The notes beneath the pieces are model-generated. The model was not told where the DNA came from and made no database searches. It worked only from the letters and a program-made list of their open reading frames with translations. Of a stretch of DNA of 64,000 nt, positions 29,120-37,138 are shown piece by piece (position 1 is the stretch's first letter; every line of letters starts with the position of its first letter). Made by a program: the position numbers and the translations under genes. The DNA comes from an uncultured Williamsia sp. (GTDB taxonomy: Bacteria; Actinomycetota; Actinomycetes; Mycobacteriales; Mycobacteriaceae). The stretch spans positions 868,001-932,000 of the forward strand of contig NZ_CANLWM010000001.1 in NCBI RefSeq assembly GCF_947494875.1, read 5' to 3'.

Positions 29120-30826
29120 ATGCGACGTCTCGCGCCATCCCTCTCGCGGACATCGGCGACGGCTCTCGCCGCCGCTGTGTTCGCTCTCCTGATGTTCTGT
29201 GCGGTCGCGGGTGCAGCGCTGCTCCCGAACTCCCGCGCCGCCGTCGCCATCATCGACACCGCGGCGATCAGCGACGCGCCGACGACGGTGGGCATCTCCG
29301 ACACCGACATGTACTGGGACGCGATGGATCCCACGGAGATCGCGAAGCGACTCGACGCGATGCAGTCACTGGGCGTCAAGAACATCCGAATCGGCATGCC
29401 GTGGGCCACGGCAGAGCCCGCACCGGGCCAGTACGACTGGACGGCGATCGACAACATGGTGAACGCGGCCGCCGCCCGTGGGATGGGGGTCCTCGGCATC
29501 ATCAACACGACGCCGACCTGGGCCCGCGGCACCTGGACCAACGTGTACGCGCCACCGGACAACCCGGCGAATCTCGGGTCGTTCGCCGCGGCGCTCGCGG
29601 CGCGCTACGCCGGCAAGGTCTCGGCGTACGAGGTGTGGAACGAGCCGAACGCGGCGTTCGCCTACCAGCCCGGCCCGGACCCCGCGGGGTACACCCAGCT
29701 GCTGAAGGCCGCCTACACGGCGATCAAGGGAGCCGACCCCCAGGCGCAGGTGATCGGTGCCGTCGTCGGCGCGACCCAGACCTGGGGATCGTGGACTCTC
29801 AACCCGGTCGACTTCGTCCAGCAGATGTACGCGGCGGGGGCGAAGGGCTACTTCGACGCTCTCTCGTTCCACCCGTACTCGTGGGCCGTCCCGTTCTCGT
29901 CGGGCGCACTGATCCCGAACTCGCCGCTAGACCAGGCCAACCGCATCTACCATCTGATGCAGGCCAACGGCGACGGCTTCAAGAAGATCTGGAGCTCCGA
30001 GTACGGCGTACCGACCGGTGTCCCCAACGTGGGGAACCAGGCGTCGATGATCAACGACTTCCTCAACACCTGGAGCACCCTCGCCTACGCGGGCCCGTCC
30101 TTCCTGTACACACTCGTGGACCGGAACAGCTCGGACACCTGGGACCCGGAGTCGACGTTCGGCCTGTTCACCGACTCGTGGGTGGCGAAGGCGGCTGCCC
30201 AGGTGGTCAAGGACTTCATCGCCGCACACCCGCAGACCGGTGGGACCCCGACCCCGCCCCCCACCCCGCCGACCAACCCGCTCGACGCGTGGGCCCAGGC
30301 GGTGCAGGCAGCGGTGCAGGCATGGCTCAAGTCGATCGCGGATGCGATCGCCGCAGCGTTCAGCCCGACCCCGCAGGCCACGACCTCCGCGCAGACCCTC
30401 GCGGCGGCCGTGACGACGACATCGCAGGCCCCGTCGTCGACGACACCGGACTCCACCTCGTCGACCACCACCGCGCCGGCCACCACCGGTGAGCCGGCGG
30501 CGGCAGCCCTGGCGGCTCCGAGCTCTTCGACCTCGGCCCCGTCCACCACGACAGAGTCCGTGACCGCACCGTCGACCACCACGTCGGCACCGTCGACCAC
30601 CACACCGTCGACCACGACGTCGGTGCCGACGACGACGACCTCGGCCCCTCCGGCCTCATCGGCGACGGGTTCGACGACGACCACCGCGGTCCCGACGACG
30701 ACGTCGGCGACCACCGCGGCGACGTCGGCCACCACGACCCCGTCCGCCGCCACGTCGACTCCGTCGAGCACCTCGTCGGCGCCGACGACGACCCAGGAGA
30801 CACCGGCGACGACCGCGGCGCGCTGA
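29120..30826 (+). CDS. Secreted cellulase-type glycoside hydrolase with Ser/Thr-rich tail, 568 aa
   Basis: Signal peptide at residues 1-40. TIM-barrel catalytic domain (about 50-380) of the GH-A clan: acid/base Glu175 in AYEVWNEPN, nucleophile Glu294 in WSSEYGVPTG, plus LGVKNIRIGMPWATAEP and FDALSFHPYSW. Residues 383-395 are a Pro-rich hinge and about 405-568 are almost pure Ser, Thr, Pro and Ala (STTT, APSTTT repeats), a likely wall-spanning, possibly O-mannosylated stalk. Substrate could be a plant, host or own-wall glycan. GTG/ATG choice: ATG 29120, weak ribosome site. Confidence 0.87.
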   Translation: MRRLAPSLSRTSATALAAAVFALLMFCAVAGAALLPNSRAAVAIIDTAAISDAPTTVGISDTDMYWDAMDPTEIAKRLDAMQSLGVKNIRIGMPWATAEPAPGQYDWTAIDNMVNAAAARGMGVLGIINTTPTWARGTWTNVYAPPDNPANLGSFAAALAARYAGKVSAYEVWNEPNAAFAYQPGPDPAGYTQLLKAAYTAIKGADPQAQVIGAVVGATQTWGSWTLNPVDFVQQMYAAGAKGYFDALSFHPYSWAVPFSSGALIPNSPLDQANRIYHLMQANGDGFKKIWSSEYGVPTGVPNVGNQASMINDFLNTWSTLAYAGPSFLYTLVDRNSSDTWDPESTFGLFTDSWVAKAAAQVVKDFIAAHPQTGGTPTPPPTPPTNPLDAWAQAVQAAVQAWLKSIADAIAAAFSPTPQATTSAQTLAAAVTTTSQAPSSTTPDSTSSTTTAPATTGEPAAAALAAPSSSTSAPSTTTESVTAPSTTTSAPSTTTPSTTTSVPTTTTSAPPASSATGSTTTTAVPTTTSATTAATSATTTPSAATSTPSSTSSAPTTTQETPATTAAR

Positions 30827-30842
30827 GGGGAGACGGGGAACG

Positions 30843-30877
30843 GCCGGTGCCGCGACTTCGGGGGTCGCAGCACCGGC
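30843..30877. terminator. Hairpin terminator, first of two
   Basis: GCCGGTGC and GCACCGGC arms (8/8), one mismatch, then GCGAC/GTCGC, around a TTCGGG-type loop. Between the convergent glycosidase and dctA genes. Related in sequence to the hairpin at 30905. Confidence 0.75.
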
Positions 30878-30904
30878 TGTCTCCTCGTACCGGAACAGTG
30901 GAGA

Positions 30905-30944
30905 ACGGCCGGTGCCACGACCTCGGGGTCGCGACACCGGCCGT
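30905..30944. terminator. Hairpin terminator, second of two
   Basis: ACGGCCGGTG and CACCGGCCGT arms (10/10) with an inner ACGACC/GGTCG pairing. It ends 22 bp from the dctA stop. The two hairpins share about 30 identical positions, which suggests a tandem duplication or convergence on one terminator type. Confidence 0.75.
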
Positions 30945-30965
30945 CGTCATCGGACGGTCGCCGGT

Positions 30966-32345
30966 CTACTTCGTGACCGACACCGCCGGCTCGTGGGCGT
31001 CGTCGACCATCGTCAACTCGTCGAACGGATCGCGTCCGTCGAGCACGTTGCGCATCTTCTCCTTGTCGACCGTGTGGGTCCAGGAACCGACCAGCAGGGT
31101 GGCGACGGCGTTGCCGGAGAAGTTGGTGACTGCGCGGGCCTCCGACATGAACCGGTCGATGCCGACGATGAGGCCGACGCCGTCGAGCAGTTCCGGTCGG
31201 TGCGCCTGCAGACCACCGGCGAGGGTGGCCAGTCCGGCGCCGCTCACGCCGGCCGCGCCCTTCGAGGCCACGATCATGAACACCAGCAGGCCGATCTGCT
31301 CACCGATGCTCAGCGGGTCGCCGAGCGCCTCGGCCACGAACAGCGACGCCATCGTCAGGTAGATGGCGGTGCCGTCGAGGTTGAACGAGTAGCCGGTCGG
31401 GACCACGACGCCGACGGTCGAGCGCTGGACGCCGATGTGCTCCATCTTCGCGATGAGGCGCGGCAGCGCCGACTCGGACGAACTCGTCGCGACGATGAGC
31501 AGGTACTCGCGGGCCAGGTAGCGGACGAGCTTGAAGATCGAGGCGCCGACGGTCATGCGGAGCATCGCGCCGAGCACACCGAAGACGAAGATCGCGCAGG
31601 TCAGGTAGAAGGCGAACATCAGGGCGAGCAGGTGGGTGACCGCGCTCCAGCCGGTCTGGCCGACGACGTTCGCGATGGCGCCGAACGCGCCGATCGGGGC
31701 GATCCACAGGATCATCGCGAGGACACGGAAGACGAGTTTCTGGATGTGGCCGATGCCGCGCAAGATCGGTTCACCCGTCGAGCCCATCGCCTGGAGGGCG
31801 AAGCCGACGAGCAGCGCGACGAACAGTGCCTGCAGGACGCTGCCGGCGGTCAACGACGACAGCAGCGAGTCCGGGATGATGCCCTGGATGAAGTCCATGG
31901 TGCCGCCGGCCTCCTCGGCCTTGCCGGCGAGCTTCTCGCCCTGACCTGCGGCGCCGCTGATGTCCAGGCCGGTGCCGGGCTGGATCAGGTTGCCGACGAC
32001 GAGGCCGATGGCGAGCGCGAACGTCGACATCGCCAGGAAGTAGCCGAACGCCAGGCCGCCGACCTTCCCGACCGTGGCGGCCTTCCGGACCGAGCCGATG
32101 CCGAGCACGATCGTGCAGAAGATGACCGGGGCGATCATCATCTTGATCAGGCTGACGAACATCGTGCCCAGCACGCCGAGGTCCTTGCCGACGCCGGGCG
32201 CCAGGATGCCGACGGCCACGCCGGCGACGACGGCGATGATGACGCCGATGTAGAGCCAGTGGGTCCGGTCGCGCTTGGGCTTCTCGGCCGTCGGCGGCTG
32301 CGGGGGTTCCGGCGTGGTCGGCGGCCGGTCGTCGGTGGCGGTCAT
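30966..32345 (-). CDS. dctA: C4-dicarboxylate/H+ (Na+) symporter DctA, 459 aa
   Basis: DAACS-family transporter for succinate, fumarate and malate. Signature elements: the re-entrant loop 1 TSSSESALPRLI, PTGYSFNLDGTAIYLTMASLF, the second loop ASKGAAGVSGAG and VGIDRFMSEARAVTNFSGN. An N-terminal Pro-rich cytosolic tail of about 28 residues precedes the first helix. ATG 32345 has a GGAGG site. It is divergent from a CitA/CitB-like two-component pair that probably senses dicarboxylate and controls it. Confidence 0.96.
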   Translation of the reverse strand: MTATDDRPPTTPEPPQPPTAEKPKRDRTHWLYIGVIIAVVAGVAVGILAPGVGKDLGVLGTMFVSLIKMMIAPVIFCTIVLGIGSVRKAATVGKVGGLAFGYFLAMSTFALAIGLVVGNLIQPGTGLDISGAAGQGEKLAGKAEEAGGTMDFIQGIIPDSLLSSLTAGSVLQALFVALLVGFALQAMGSTGEPILRGIGHIQKLVFRVLAMILWIAPIGAFGAIANVVGQTGWSAVTHLLALMFAFYLTCAIFVFGVLGAMLRMTVGASIFKLVRYLAREYLLIVATSSSESALPRLIAKMEHIGVQRSTVGVVVPTGYSFNLDGTAIYLTMASLFVAEALGDPLSIGEQIGLLVFMIVASKGAAGVSGAGLATLAGGLQAHRPELLDGVGLIVGIDRFMSEARAVTNFSGNAVATLLVGSWTHTVDKEKMRNVLDGRDPFDELTMVDDAHEPAVSVTK

Positions 32346-32448: not shown

Positions 32449-34053
32449 GTGAGACGTCTGATGCCGCGGTCCTTGGCGGGTCAGGCGTTCCTGCTGCAGA
32501 TCGCCGCGATCGTCGTGCTCGTCGTCGTCGTGGGCTCACTCGCGGCGTGGGACGCGCGACGGGGCGAAGAACGGTCCGCACGGGAGGAGGTCGTCGCGGT
32601 GGCGGTGTCACTGGCCGACGCGCCGTCGACCGCCGAGGCGATCGGGTCCGGTTCGGCGACCGCGCGACTGCAGCCCCTGACCGAACTGGTCCGGGCCGAG
32701 ACCGGGATGGCCTTCATCACGATCATGGCGCCCGATCGCACCCGCTTCACCCACACCAACCCCACCCTCATCGGGAAGCCGTTCGTCGGGACCATCGCCC
32801 CCGCGCTGGCCGGGCGCGTGTTCACCGAGACCAACACGGGCACGCTCGGGCCGTCGATCCGCGCGGTCGCACCGGTGCGTGACAGCGCCGGACGTATCGT
32901 CGGCCTGGTGTCGGCAGGCATCACGCTGTCGACGCTGGCCGACCGGTGGGTGGACCAGCTGCCCATGATCGGGCTCGTCGTCGCGGTCCTGTTGGTCGTC
33001 TCGGTGGCGGGGACGTGGGCCGTGCGTCGGAGATTGCTACGGCAGACGCACGGACTCGCCCCGGAGGACCTCCGCGTCATGTACGAGCACCACGACGCCG
33101 TGTTGCACTCCGTGCGTGAGGGTCTCGTCGTCATGGAGGGCGGGAAACCGGTCGTCGTGAACGACGAGGCGCGTCGGCTCCTGCAATTGCCCGACCGCGT
33201 CGACGTGCCGGTGGATCTGCCGTCGTTTGTGACGGACCGACGCGAGATCCGCGACGAGGTCCATGTCGTCGGCGACCGCGTGCTCGTCGTCAACCGGGTC
33301 CGGATGCTCCACCGCAACGGCGAACGCAGCGCTGTGGTGACGGTGCGCGACCGGACCGAATTGCAGGGCGCCCTGGGCGAACTCGACTCGATGCGGGTGT
33401 TCGCCGAGTCGCTGCGGGCCGCCGCGCACGAGTCCGCCAACCGGTTGCACACGGTGATCGGGTTGATCGAGATCGGCCGCTCCGAGGAGGCGGTGCGGTT
33501 CGCGACGACCGAACTCGAGCTGTCCCAGCACCTCGTGGACCGCCTGACGGCTGCGGTCGCGGAGCCGGCATTGGTGGCGTTGCTGCTGGGCAAGTCCGCG
33601 CAGGCCGACGAGCGTGGGGTGGCGCTGACCGTGACCGAGGACAGTCGCCTCGACGACGCCGACAAAGCGCCGCTGACCGGGCACGAGATGGTCACTGTTG
33701 CAGGCAATCTCATCGACAACGCCCTCGACGCCTGCGACCGCGACGACCCGTGGGTCGAGGTGACGGTTCGGGAGGAGGACGACGGGTTGATGATCCGTGT
33801 CGCCGACAGCGGTCCGGGCATGGACGCCGACGAGTTCGACCGCGCCCGCACGCGCGGATACTCGACGAAACCCGTCGCCGACGGCTCCCCGGCCGGTGGG
33901 CGGGGGCTGGGCCTGGCGCTGATCTCCCAGATCGTCGATCGTCACGGCGGCACCATCACCGCCGAGGTGACCTACGGTTCGGTGGTGACCGTGGTCGTGC
34001 CGTCGCGGTCCGATCGCCCGATGCCGTCGGGCAGGAAGGCGTCGCGCGTGTGA
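32449..34053 (+). CDS. CitA/DcuS-type sensor histidine kinase, 534 aa
   Basis: Two membrane helices (about 11-33 and 172-190) enclose an extracytoplasmic sCache-type domain (about 35-170) with GMAFITIMAPDRTRFTHTNP and AVAPVRDSAGRIVGLVSAG. A cytosolic PAS-like domain follows (about 205-310), then the phospho-acceptor His327 in AAAHESANRLHTVIGL and an ATPase domain with NLIDNALDA, DSGPGM and GRGLGLALI. It would phosphorylate the regulator encoded by the next, overlapping gene. GTG 32449 is set by a GGAGGG site. Likely ligand: a C4-dicarboxylate or citrate. Confidence 0.94.
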   Translation: MRRLMPRSLAGQAFLLQIAAIVVLVVVVGSLAAWDARRGEERSAREEVVAVAVSLADAPSTAEAIGSGSATARLQPLTELVRAETGMAFITIMAPDRTRFTHTNPTLIGKPFVGTIAPALAGRVFTETNTGTLGPSIRAVAPVRDSAGRIVGLVSAGITLSTLADRWVDQLPMIGLVVAVLLVVSVAGTWAVRRRLLRQTHGLAPEDLRVMYEHHDAVLHSVREGLVVMEGGKPVVVNDEARRLLQLPDRVDVPVDLPSFVTDRREIRDEVHVVGDRVLVVNRVRMLHRNGERSAVVTVRDRTELQGALGELDSMRVFAESLRAAAHESANRLHTVIGLIEIGRSEEAVRFATTELELSQHLVDRLTAAVAEPALVALLLGKSAQADERGVALTVTEDSRLDDADKAPLTGHEMVTVAGNLIDNALDACDRDDPWVEVTVREEDDGLMIRVADSGPGMDADEFDRARTRGYSTKPVADGSPAGGRGLGLALISQIVDRHGGTITAEVTYGSVVTVVVPSRSDRPMPSGRKASRV

Positions 34054-34757
34054 GCGATCCGATCCGAGTCCTCATCGTGGAGGACGAACCGCTCATCGCG
34101 CAGACCCATGAGGCGTACGTCGAGCGGCTGTCGGGGTTCGTCGTCGTCGGTATCGCCGGCACCGCCCAGGCCGCGTTGCGGGCGGTGGCGCGGTGCGCTG
34201 CCGAGGACGCACCGGTCGACGTCGTCCTGCTCGACATCGGACTGCCCGACGCCAGCGGGATCGAGCTCGCGTCGGCGTTGTCGGGACAGCGTCCCGAGCC
34301 CGACGTCATCGCCATCACCTCGGAACGCGACCTGTCGGTGGTGCGGTCGGCCGTCGCCCACGGCGTGTTGCTGTACCTGTTGAAACCGTTCACGTTCGCG
34401 GCGTTCCGCGACAAGCTGGAGCGCTACCGCGAGTACCGGGCAGCGCTTCCGGCGGGGACCGACGCCGTAGGCCAGGCCGAGGTCGATCGCGCGATGGCCG
34501 TGCTCCGCGGCGCCGACGACCGCGCAGCGGCGCCCACCGGCGCCGCCGCCGCGACCGCGGAGCAGATCGGCCGTCGGGTGCAGGACAGCACCGACGGTCT
34601 GACCGCGAGCGAGGCGGCCACCGCCTCCGGGATCTCGCGGGTCACCGCATGGCGGTACCTCGAACGCCTCGCCGACGACGGACTCGTCACGCGCACCACC
34701 GAATACGGCCGCACCGGTCGTCCCCAGGTGCGCTACAGCTGGAAGGCGCGGAAGTAG
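34050..34757 (+). CDS. CitB/DctR-type response regulator, 235 aa
   Basis: Receiver domain with Asp62 in VVLLDIGLPDASG and conserved Lys112 in YLLKPF, then a helix-turn-helix region typical of the CitB/DpiA family (LTASEAATASGISRVTAWRYL, YGRTGRPQVRYSW). The GTG start at 34050 overlaps the kinase stop (GTGA). It probably activates the divergent dctA. Confidence 0.94.
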   Translation: MSDPIRVLIVEDEPLIAQTHEAYVERLSGFVVVGIAGTAQAALRAVARCAAEDAPVDVVLLDIGLPDASGIELASALSGQRPEPDVIAITSERDLSVVRSAVAHGVLLYLLKPFTFAAFRDKLERYREYRAALPAGTDAVGQAEVDRAMAVLRGADDRAAAPTGAAAATAEQIGRRVQDSTDGLTASEAATASGISRVTAWRYLERLADDGLVTRTTEYGRTGRPQVRYSWKARK

Positions 34758-34990
34758 GTCGGCGTTCGCCCGCGATCGTGTTCGTTTGCCACCCCGTGCC
34801 GGTTCTGCCCGCGGAATCTTGGTGGCGAACCCGTGTCGCGGTGGCGAAGTGGTGATCGTGCGGGCGAGGTTCGCACGGTCGGGATGCGTTCGCATGTCGG
34901 GTTGGTGTTCGCATGGCCCCGGTGGTGTGCGAACGGCACGTGAGCATGCGAACGGCGGCAGGACGTGCAGTTCGGGACGGTCATCGACAA
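34758..34990. repeat. Intergenic array of 19-bp-phased TTCGC/GCGAA boxes
   Basis: The 233-bp stretch downstream of the response regulator has no gene-like ORF. GTTCGCA occurs at 34869, 34888 and 34907 (exactly 19 bp apart), then its complement TGCGAAC at 34928 and 34947 (19 bp apart). GGTGGCGAA occurs at 34822 and 34841, again 19 bp apart. Related GTTCG boxes lie at 34764 and 34780. Confidence 0.75.
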
Positions 34991-35025
34991 CGAGAGCCCC
35001 GGCGCTGTACGCGCCGGGGCTCTCG
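34991..35025. terminator. Strong bidirectional hairpin terminator
   Basis: Perfect 15-bp stem (CGAGAGCCCCGGCGC) with a TGTAC loop, between the convergent response-regulator and lipase genes. A short pyrimidine tail (TCTCGT) on the plus side. Confidence 0.9.
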
Positions 35026-35044
35026 TGTCAGTCGTGTGCCGGGG

Positions 35045-36385
35045 TCAGCTGAACGAGCACCCCTGCACCGGCGGCTTGCCGGCGAAGCGGTCGGCGAGCC
35101 AGTCGAACGCCCGCTGGAACCCGCTGATGCCGCCGGCGACGTGACCGAAGGTCGACGAGCTGATGAAGCGGATCGGGAACGGGATCTCGGTGTACTGCAG
35201 GGACGCGGGTCCCTTCTCGCACCATTTCGAGTACAGCTCGCGGCCCTGGAACACCGGCACCGTCGGGTCGTCGGGGTTCGACGAGAGCAGGACGGGGACG
35301 GTCGGCTTGATGTTGCCGAGGTCCTGGTCGTGCACGTACTTGCTCAGCACAGGATCGGCCACGACGAGCTCGCCGAACGACTTGTGTGAGACCGTCCAGT
35401 CCCGGGTGCTCGGCTTGCCACGGGCCGAGGTCAGCACGATGCACTCGCCCGACAGCTGCTGCATCGTCTGCTTGCCGTAGGGGTTCAGGATCGTCGCGAT
35501 GCGCTCCTTGAACTCGGGGAACCGGTAGGTCGCGCCGTTGAGGGCGTACCCGATGACGCCGCCGAGGCGGTTTCCGTCGAGGTAGTTCATCTCGCGCAGC
35601 AGGTCGGCGGGCACGCCGCCGGCGTAGACGCCCACGATCGGCAGCTCGGGCGCGTAGGTCCCGACGAGCTCGGCCGCCGAGGCAGCCGCGCCGCCGCCCT
35701 GCGAGTAACCGGCGATCGCGACCTTCGTCTCCGGGGACACTCCCGGCAACTTCAACGCGGCGCGGGCGGCGTCGATGACGGCGTGCCCCTGGTCGACGCG
35801 GATGCCGAACGTGTGGGTGCCGGGCGTGCCGCCGCCCATGTAGTCGCTGGACACGACGCCGTAGCCCTGGTTGACCATGTTGAGGGTCACGATCTGCTCG
35901 ATCTCGGCCATCGGACCGCCCGGCAGGCTGAAGGTGACGCCCTCCTGCAGCAGCTTCGACGCCGCGCACTGGTCGCCCTGGCCGTGCAGGCCGCCCGCGT
36001 ACGAGACGATCGGCCGCGCGCCGGGTCCGGTCCACGGCTTCGTCGGCTCGAGGTAGTAGCCGGTCACCGCGATCGGGGCGCCGTTGGCGTCGATCGAGAG
36101 GTACATGATCCGCGTTGCCTTGGCCGGGATGAAGCCGGTCGGGGTGGGGATCTTGATCGCCGTCGGCAGTGCCTCCGACCGGATGATGTCACCGGGCTTG
36201 CCCGCCGGAAGCGGGCTCGGCGGTGTGTAGAAGGACTCGCTCACCGCGGATGCCGCGGGTGTCGGTGCCGCCGGTTCCGGTGCCGCGTGGGCGGTCTGGA
36301 CCGTCGCGGTCGCCATGACGGTTGCTGTCGCCACCCCCACGCACGCGGTGCGTAGTCGTCGCATCATTGATCGATCGAAACCCAC
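35045..36385 (-). CDS. Secretory lipase family protein, 446 aa
   Basis: Signal peptide (MMRRLRTACVGVATATVMAT, cleavage AHA-AP near residue 34). The alpha/beta-hydrolase domain of the LIP family shows the nucleophile elbow GYSQGGGAAA, an oxyanion region SYAGGLHGQGDQCAAS and a catalytic-His region TFGHVAGGISGF. Likely exported to hydrolyse host or environmental triglycerides or wall lipid esters. The start is ATG 36385 or the ATG pair six codons in. Confidence 0.9.
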   Translation of the reverse strand: MGFDRSMMRRLRTACVGVATATVMATATVQTAHAAPEPAAPTPAASAVSESFYTPPSPLPAGKPGDIIRSEALPTAIKIPTPTGFIPAKATRIMYLSIDANGAPIAVTGYYLEPTKPWTGPGARPIVSYAGGLHGQGDQCAASKLLQEGVTFSLPGGPMAEIEQIVTLNMVNQGYGVVSSDYMGGGTPGTHTFGIRVDQGHAVIDAARAALKLPGVSPETKVAIAGYSQGGGAAASAAELVGTYAPELPIVGVYAGGVPADLLREMNYLDGNRLGGVIGYALNGATYRFPEFKERIATILNPYGKQTMQQLSGECIVLTSARGKPSTRDWTVSHKSFGELVVADPVLSKYVHDQDLGNIKPTVPVLLSSNPDDPTVPVFQGRELYSKWCEKGPASLQYTEIPFPIRFISSSTFGHVAGGISGFQRAFDWLADRFAGKPPVQGCSFS

Positions 36386-36811: not shown

Positions 36812-37138
36812 GGCCCAAACCGGTCGCAGCCGCTGCGGCACCAGGCCTTCTACAAGGCGGTGTATCGTCCGGCGGTGCTGCGGGCCAACCGCGCCGCCAC
36901 GGACCGGGCGCTGCGGCCGGGCCTCAAGTTCCACGCGCTGCGGCACACCTACGCCAGCCTGTGCGTGGCGGCGGGCATCCCTCCGCTGGAGATCGCGCGG
37001 TTTATGGGGCACGCCAAAGTCACGACCACGCTCAGCGTCTACGCGCACCTGTTCGAGGACGACCACACAGACGCGATGTCGGCACTGGGTGCTGTGAGCC
37101 AGCCATCTAGCGCGAATGTTGTCAGGCTGCGCGGCTAG
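36812..37138 (+). pseudogene. Tyrosine recombinase (integrase), C-terminal catalytic fragment
   Basis: The frame opens after a stop at 36809 and has QAFYKAVYRPAVLRA, box II LKFHALRHTYASLCVAAG with the catalytic His and Arg, LEIARFMGHAKVTTT and the nucleophile Tyr in SVYAHLFE. The N-terminal half with the first catalytic Arg and the DNA-binding domains is absent, so it cannot be active by itself. It lies next to the distal att copy, as expected for an element integrase. Confidence 0.85.

Follow-up and report, generated by a model that had tools for sequence, protein, structure and literature searches.

Several kinds of short dispersed DNA elements come close to the one described here. REP and BIME elements are dispersed and intergenic, lie mainly in gaps between convergent or same-direction genes, occur in mixed orientations, and, in the portions of the two sources at hand, are proposed to act in protein docking and chromosome organization (PMC3733652, PMC2817692). 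EspR, a nucleoid-associated protein of Mycobacterium tuberculosis, recognizes the core TTTGC[TC][GA] and forms cooperative oligomers; its published description places two sites with a 19-bp separation upstream of espACD and gives a 16-bp spacer for an inverted pair, the sites as a whole falling about equally inside and between genes, promoter regions included (PMC3315491). The intergenic TAACTGA direct repeats of Beggiatoaceae, as far as the available text of that study goes, form dispersed runs of a heptamer, mostly just before start codons and almost never inverted (PMC4679880). Finally, spaced motif pairs found by genome statistics are, by the part of the account available, intergenic and palindromic with fixed gaps, and for some of them the position is close to a 3′ end or in a convergent gap. 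The same account includes a mycobacterial pair, CGAAA(N)19TTTCG, which has another sequence and is said there to be spread among genes (PMC5217627). Our searches of the open-access literature found no description of the arrays presented below.

The element under study lies in a window of 64,000 nucleotides from the genome of an uncultured Williamsia sp. (G000). It occupies the gap between two convergent genes, a response regulator gene (34050–34757, plus strand; Pfam Response_reg, with a DpiA-like HTH below the cut-off), the stop codon of which directly precedes it in the gene call, and a secretory lipase gene (35045–36385, minus strand; Pfam LIP, 2.5e-56). The locus is a tandem of one A/B-type array (34785–34848) abutting one C-type array (34869–34953), followed by a separate terminator-like inverted repeat of 16 perfectly paired bp with a 5-nt loop (34990–35026), which bears out the placement originally given, with a two-component regulator gene on one side and a terminator-like hairpin on the other. 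The C array has a left arm of GTTCGCA boxes at 34869, 34888, and 34907 (34869–34913, plus strand), a center, TGGCCCCGGTGGTG (34914–34927), with a CCGG core common to most arrays of this genome, and a right arm of TGCGAAC boxes at 34928 and 34947 (34928–34953, minus strand). All five boxes stand exactly where the original prediction had put them, and its flip of orientation near 34920 coincides with the dyad computed at 34920.5. A decayed third right box, TGCAGTT, mismatched at four of seven positions, occupies the exact 19-bp register position (34966–34972, minus strand). Just upstream of the C array, the A/B companion is built from TTCGCCACC/TTCGCCCG boxes in nearly the same geometry and, read on the plus strand, comprises TTTGCCACC at 34785, TCTGCCCG at 34804, and GGTGGCGAA at 34821 and 34840, the last two being minus-strand boxes; its steps are 19 bp and its TCGC-to-GCGA flip 20, with three mismatches to the core pattern. 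The two GGTGGCGAA boxes had been recognized from the outset, with starts (34822 and 34841) that were wrong by one, and had been counted among three separate box sets; they belong instead to this second mirrored array. Two B-type boxes, TTCGCCCG (34765–34772, plus strand), 20 bp ahead of the next box, and CGGGCGA (34861–34867, minus strand), 20 bp past the last A box, flank the A/B array one base out of step (20, not 19). A/B arrays, that of the window included, can have different box types at mirrored positions.

The GTTCGCA heptamer alone is not enriched in the window (12 occurrences versus 9.4 expected), whereas the patterned arrays have no counterpart in the controls; hence, what is improbable is the arrangement of the boxes rather than the heptamer. 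The proposed genome-wide scan for GTTCGCA at 19-bp spacing recovered 12 GTTCGCA-N12-GTTCGCA pairs in the window's own genome and none for the same pattern read backwards, and the control patterns exclude equal spacing at random sites as an explanation. The four-box mirrored pattern, allowing up to three mismatches, has 44 occurrences across all eight Williamsia genomes, 6 of them in this genome (reversed control, 0), at 3 to 14 GTTCGCA arrays per genome; together with two arrays from Nakamurella, these make up the 46 hits left of 54 after removal of duplicate arrays shifted by 19 bp (mismatch score of 4). Nine of 401 sampled genomes of the family were positive for the pattern: eight Williamsia genomes and one other (G021), which carries a long, almost perfect palindrome. 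Searching a named collection for the four boxes without mismatches gave 15 stretches, of which Williamsia accounts for 13 and Nakamurella lactea for 2. The core geometry shared across box types, TTCGC-N14-TTCGC-N16-GCGAA-N14-GCGAA, picks out with up to three mismatches 18 arrays in the window's genome (control, 0), 6 of the C type and 12 of the A/B type. With at most one mismatch, it is present in 24 of 251 genomes and 5 of 31 genera of the family (eight genomes of genus 1, nine of g11, five of g27, and a single one in each of g9 and g14), with 0 in every control, and in a class-wide sample of 394 genomes it matched the window's own genome only. The exact three-box pattern had no match in viral contigs, and no array matched the phage and plasmid collections; an origin in a virus, phage, or plasmid was therefore rejected. 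The suggestion that the element is noncoding and repeat derived has thus been borne out, in that the array belongs to a dispersed intergenic family, and we rate the Williamsia arrays as dispersed intergenic repeats, an established kind of element, with an unusual architecture.

That architecture is strictly phased. Of 88 arms, 57 have a third box outward (with 0 or 1 mismatch) at exactly 19 bp, and no other offset between −9 and +9 is occupied in more than one arm; the third box played no part in selection, so this test is free of box-selection bias. The register still holds for a fourth box in 15 arms, a fifth in 10, and a sixth in 5, and the number of boxes per arm ranges from 1 to 9. The position table gives an extended unit of roughly GTTCGCAYGSY, and inner units show higher conservation than outer units. 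When orthologous arrays are aligned in register and without gaps, 48 of 756 box positions (6%) differ, versus 431 of 1,026 spacer positions (42%), a contrast that is partly inflated because the arrays were found by their boxes. The original prediction had staked its case on phasing being kept in close relatives: it is exact wherever orthologous arrays exist, but the array of this particular locus is missing or reduced to a remnant in two of them. The 14-bp centers differ at a mean of 2.9 positions within a genome, 5.2 between orthologues, and 5.9 between unrelated arrays of other genomes, as exemplified by the CCGG of most G000 arrays and the GCATGC of G005 and most of G007. Such likeness within a genome, which rests mostly on G007 (91 of 145 pairs), would fit a shared trans-acting reader, or gene conversion.

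The location of the arrays is equally distinctive. With retrained gene calls, none of the 44 C arrays lies inside a predicted gene, and 37 of them have a 3′ end as their closest gene boundary. Fifteen occupy convergent gaps, 19 same-direction gaps, 6 divergent gaps, and 4 contig edges, compared with 5 convergent, 58 same-direction, and 51 divergent among array-free gaps of at least 100 bp from the same loci. Counted by independent locus (24 loci, grouped by hand and with contig-edge arrays left out), 9 of 24 loci are convergent versus 5 of 114 array-free gaps (p = 4e-5), and 2 of 24 are divergent versus 51 of 114 (p = 4e-4); of the six divergent arrays, four represent a single orthologous locus, one copy from each of four genomes, and the other two are in L076. 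Among the A/B arrays of the window's genome (9 of 12 covered), 6 are in convergent, 2 in same-direction, and 1 in divergent gaps, and eight arrays from other genera divide into 4 convergent and 4 same direction. Perfect hairpins of at least 9 bp are found in 10 of 35 gaps with arrays, the arrays' own hairpins included, versus 10 of 143 without. Because hairpins are not rarer in array gaps, the arrays do not clearly replace terminators, and the idea that they are terminator substitutes was rejected.

Arrays also occur in pairs. At L055 (4982–6216), L065, L071, and L079, an orthologous gene lies between two GTTCGCA arrays, one of which sits in a divergent gap beside a gene that we take to be YajQ-like. 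Pfam gives no family for the L055 copy of the enclosed gene, which we had presumed to be an AbiEi/DUF559 protein; as the PF04480 hits fall elsewhere, DUF559-type genes were rejected as partners of the arrays. At L068 (5079–6873), from G005, two arrays about 1.9 kb apart have two extra reading frames between them, while G000 and G001 have one array. At L077, L081, and L083, three G007 genes with a C-terminal region in common each end in a GTTCGCA array, which suggests shared recombination or duplication. One orthologous array has a SUKH-1 gene as its neighbor in G000, other genes in G001, and none in G005. As array pairs bound different genes or none, gene cassettes were rejected as an account in their own right and kept only as part of the mobile-element alternative considered below.

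The phase is rigid, a conserved dyad is the center of mirror symmetry, conservation is confined to the boxes, and the arrays are dispersed behind genes; together, these features point to a candidate binding array. We infer a double-stranded array that would be filled cooperatively by a protein, dispersed through the genome and having an architectural or insulating role, a reading that we consider plausible, with the balance for and against it about even. It corresponds to the ordered protein-binding array first envisaged, which, as a candidate for binding, is the reading best supported by the tests of phase, mirror symmetry, and box conservation. One candidate protein would read the asymmetric box of about 7 to 11 bp (GTTCGCAYGSY, and the related TTCGCC in the companion array); a head-to-head pair of copies would sit on the central dyad, the best-conserved part, and further copies would be added outward, one per 19 bp on each side, to give a mirrored cooperative assembly. 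Since the arrays are intergenic, most of them following the end of a gene and many placed where two genes converge, their likely role would be in local chromosome architecture or in the insulation of neighboring transcription units rather than in promoter control.

The same position at 3′ ends and between converging genes would also suit a REP-like element that acts by forming structure, either as an RNA hairpin that terminates or stabilizes the 3′ ends of both converging transcripts or as a DNA cruciform. Predicted RNA folds of the arrays are indeed better than those of dinucleotide shuffles (mean z of −3.5, versus −0.7 for control gaps), but such an advantage over shuffled DNA follows from the mirrored boxes. 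The spacers of Williamsia, on the other hand, pair at the level of chance, with values of 0.447 for own arms versus 0.435 across arrays in the 44 C arrays and of 0.395 versus 0.404 in 19 A/B arrays among the matches listed (12 from the window's genome and 7 others; permutation p = 0.64); likewise, chimeras made from two arrays of the same genome fold as well as real ones (n = 44, p = 0.17; 0.58 with the center masked). Further, arm lengths are often unequal, as in L083 with 9 left versus 3 right boxes, and the terminator-like hairpin at the window array is a separate one, lying 37 bp past the last good box. The spacer comparisons argue against a selected hairpin in Williamsia. The element is closer to a true hairpin in other genera, where near-palindromic relatives with covarying spacers are found: excess spacer complementarity is seen in g11 (p = 0.013; 18 of 23 listed sequences, 5 having been left out by eye as near-duplicates) and in g27 (p = 0.020; 6 of 6 sequences), indicating that the hairpin matters, or is being copied, in those genera, and the inner spacers of the Nakamurella lactea arrays are complementary. 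Taking both sides together, we consider a structure-forming element an unlikely explanation.

Turnover between relatives brings up a different alternative, namely that the arrays are the sites of a candidate recombinase or transposase that would move them as nonautonomous elements, sometimes with a gene in between. The response regulator has orthologues in all eight genomes, with 95% identity in G005 and 93% in G001. In these two genomes the lipase gene adjoins it, with no array in G001 and only a remnant in G005; therefore, the flanking genes do not need the array, which is not locally essential. In the other five, it has different neighbors and no array. A segment of about 255 bp in G003, in which 22-bp units form a palindrome around a C array, is absent from G004, where its flanks adjoin, and a part of it is held by G006 beside a run of N. 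Such presence and absence among close relatives, the different genes or none beside orthologous arrays, and the array pairs that enclose one or two genes (L055, L068) would all be expected of mobility. Nevertheless, no target duplication was seen in the one clean comparison (G003 versus G004), losses can come from deletion of palindromic DNA, and the spacers of copies within a genome differ by about 36% (13.9 of 38 positions), unlike those of recently moved copies. A search for the Y1 (RAYT-type) transposase (PF01797, E ≤ 0.001) that was positive in 5 of 14 control genomes found it in 0 of 8 Williamsia genomes, and we regard a mobile or recombination element as quite improbable. Even less is to be said for a selfish or neutral repeat, in which 19-bp tandem units would have arisen by slippage and mirror copying and persisted without function: the variable number of units per arm and the occasional identity of adjacent units (L076) are in keeping with it, but the boxes are kept in exact register while the spacers have diverged to 42%, and the same box recurs across eight genomes, leaving it very improbable.

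Other repeats were also noted. At L064 (4869–5125) and at L061, L067, L070, L057, and L050, GTTCGCA arrays are flanked by, or embedded in, arrays of a second phased and mirrored family, the unit of which is 22 bp long (about CCGCCGANYGTGCCGAA); with a 2.4-kb query containing this family, each genome gave 20 to 42 matches, mainly to the 22-bp-unit part. At L072 (4794–4920), in G006, six copies of a GGGCCCT box in 21-bp phase lie beside a GTTCGCA array. Within the window, repeats on ACGGCCGGTGCCGCGAC / GGTCGC.ACACCGGC are found at 30840–30945, between a gene ending at 30826 and a gene at 30966–32345, and a short reading frame at about 36860–37138 presumably resembles the C-terminal end of a phage-type integrase.

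If a protein does fill the arrays, their rigid phase and mirror symmetry would offer a ready system, defined by sequence, in which to study how bacteria mark where transcription units end and organize a chromosome without REP/RAYT elements, the strict 19-bp phase making the binding geometry directly predictable and open to test. More tentatively, the protein-binding reading may be extended to a genus-wide chromosome-organizing system, in which a TTCGC-reading protein would nucleate on dyads behind genes, fill the arrays in 19-bp steps, wall off converging units, and coevolve with the arrays of each species; we think this doubtful, though worth entertaining. If true, it would belong to a broader class of phased palindromic arrays not described before, given the 22- and 21-bp sister families in the same genomes and the arrays of the same geometry in four further genera of the family.

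Several known systems can be set against the Williamsia arrays. CRISPR and integron attC sites were set aside on general grounds, the boxes being 7 bp with 12-bp spacers, and the core sites of attC point the opposite way to the Williamsia boxes. The likening of the array to iterons or parS sites in the original prediction finds no support: Williamsia genomes carry 3 to 14 arrays at unrelated intergenic places, mostly behind genes, and the window array, one of 6 dispersed copies in its genome, has a response regulator gene and a lipase gene as its neighbors, with no adjoining replication or partition gene and no plasmid or phage match. Nor did any of six loci from this genome match an Rfam RNA family at the gathering score, and the excess pairing of arms that marks an RNA or DNA hairpin element is lacking in Williamsia and weak in g11 and g27. 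Like REP and BIME elements, the arrays are dispersed and extragenic, favor convergent and same-direction gaps, occur in mixed orientations, and would have a part in protein docking and chromosome organization. However, the REP unit is an imperfect palindrome, whereas the Williamsia unit is nonpalindromic and only the whole array is mirrored; its spacing is a rigid 19 bp with unconstrained spacers, its GTTCGCA arrays number 3 to 14 per genome against the usual more than 100 REP copies, and the IS200-type Y1 transposase of REPIN/RAYT systems is missing from the eight genomes. The TAACTGA repeats of Beggiatoaceae, to judge from the available text, resemble the arrays as a dispersed intergenic heptamer in direct repeats with no reader assigned, but the Williamsia arrays differ in their 12-bp spacers, mirror symmetry, and position mostly behind genes. 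The spaced motif pairs are, in the part of PMC5217627 at hand, single pairs rather than phased arrays of several boxes, and none given there is from Williamsia. The nearest known binding geometry that we found, going by its published description in part, is that of EspR. The EspR inverted pair points outward while the Williamsia boxes point inward, and its sites are genic, intergenic, and promoter associated where the arrays are intergenic and mostly behind genes; its TTTGC core is one base from the Williamsia TTCGC, and two of its sites too are 19 bp apart.
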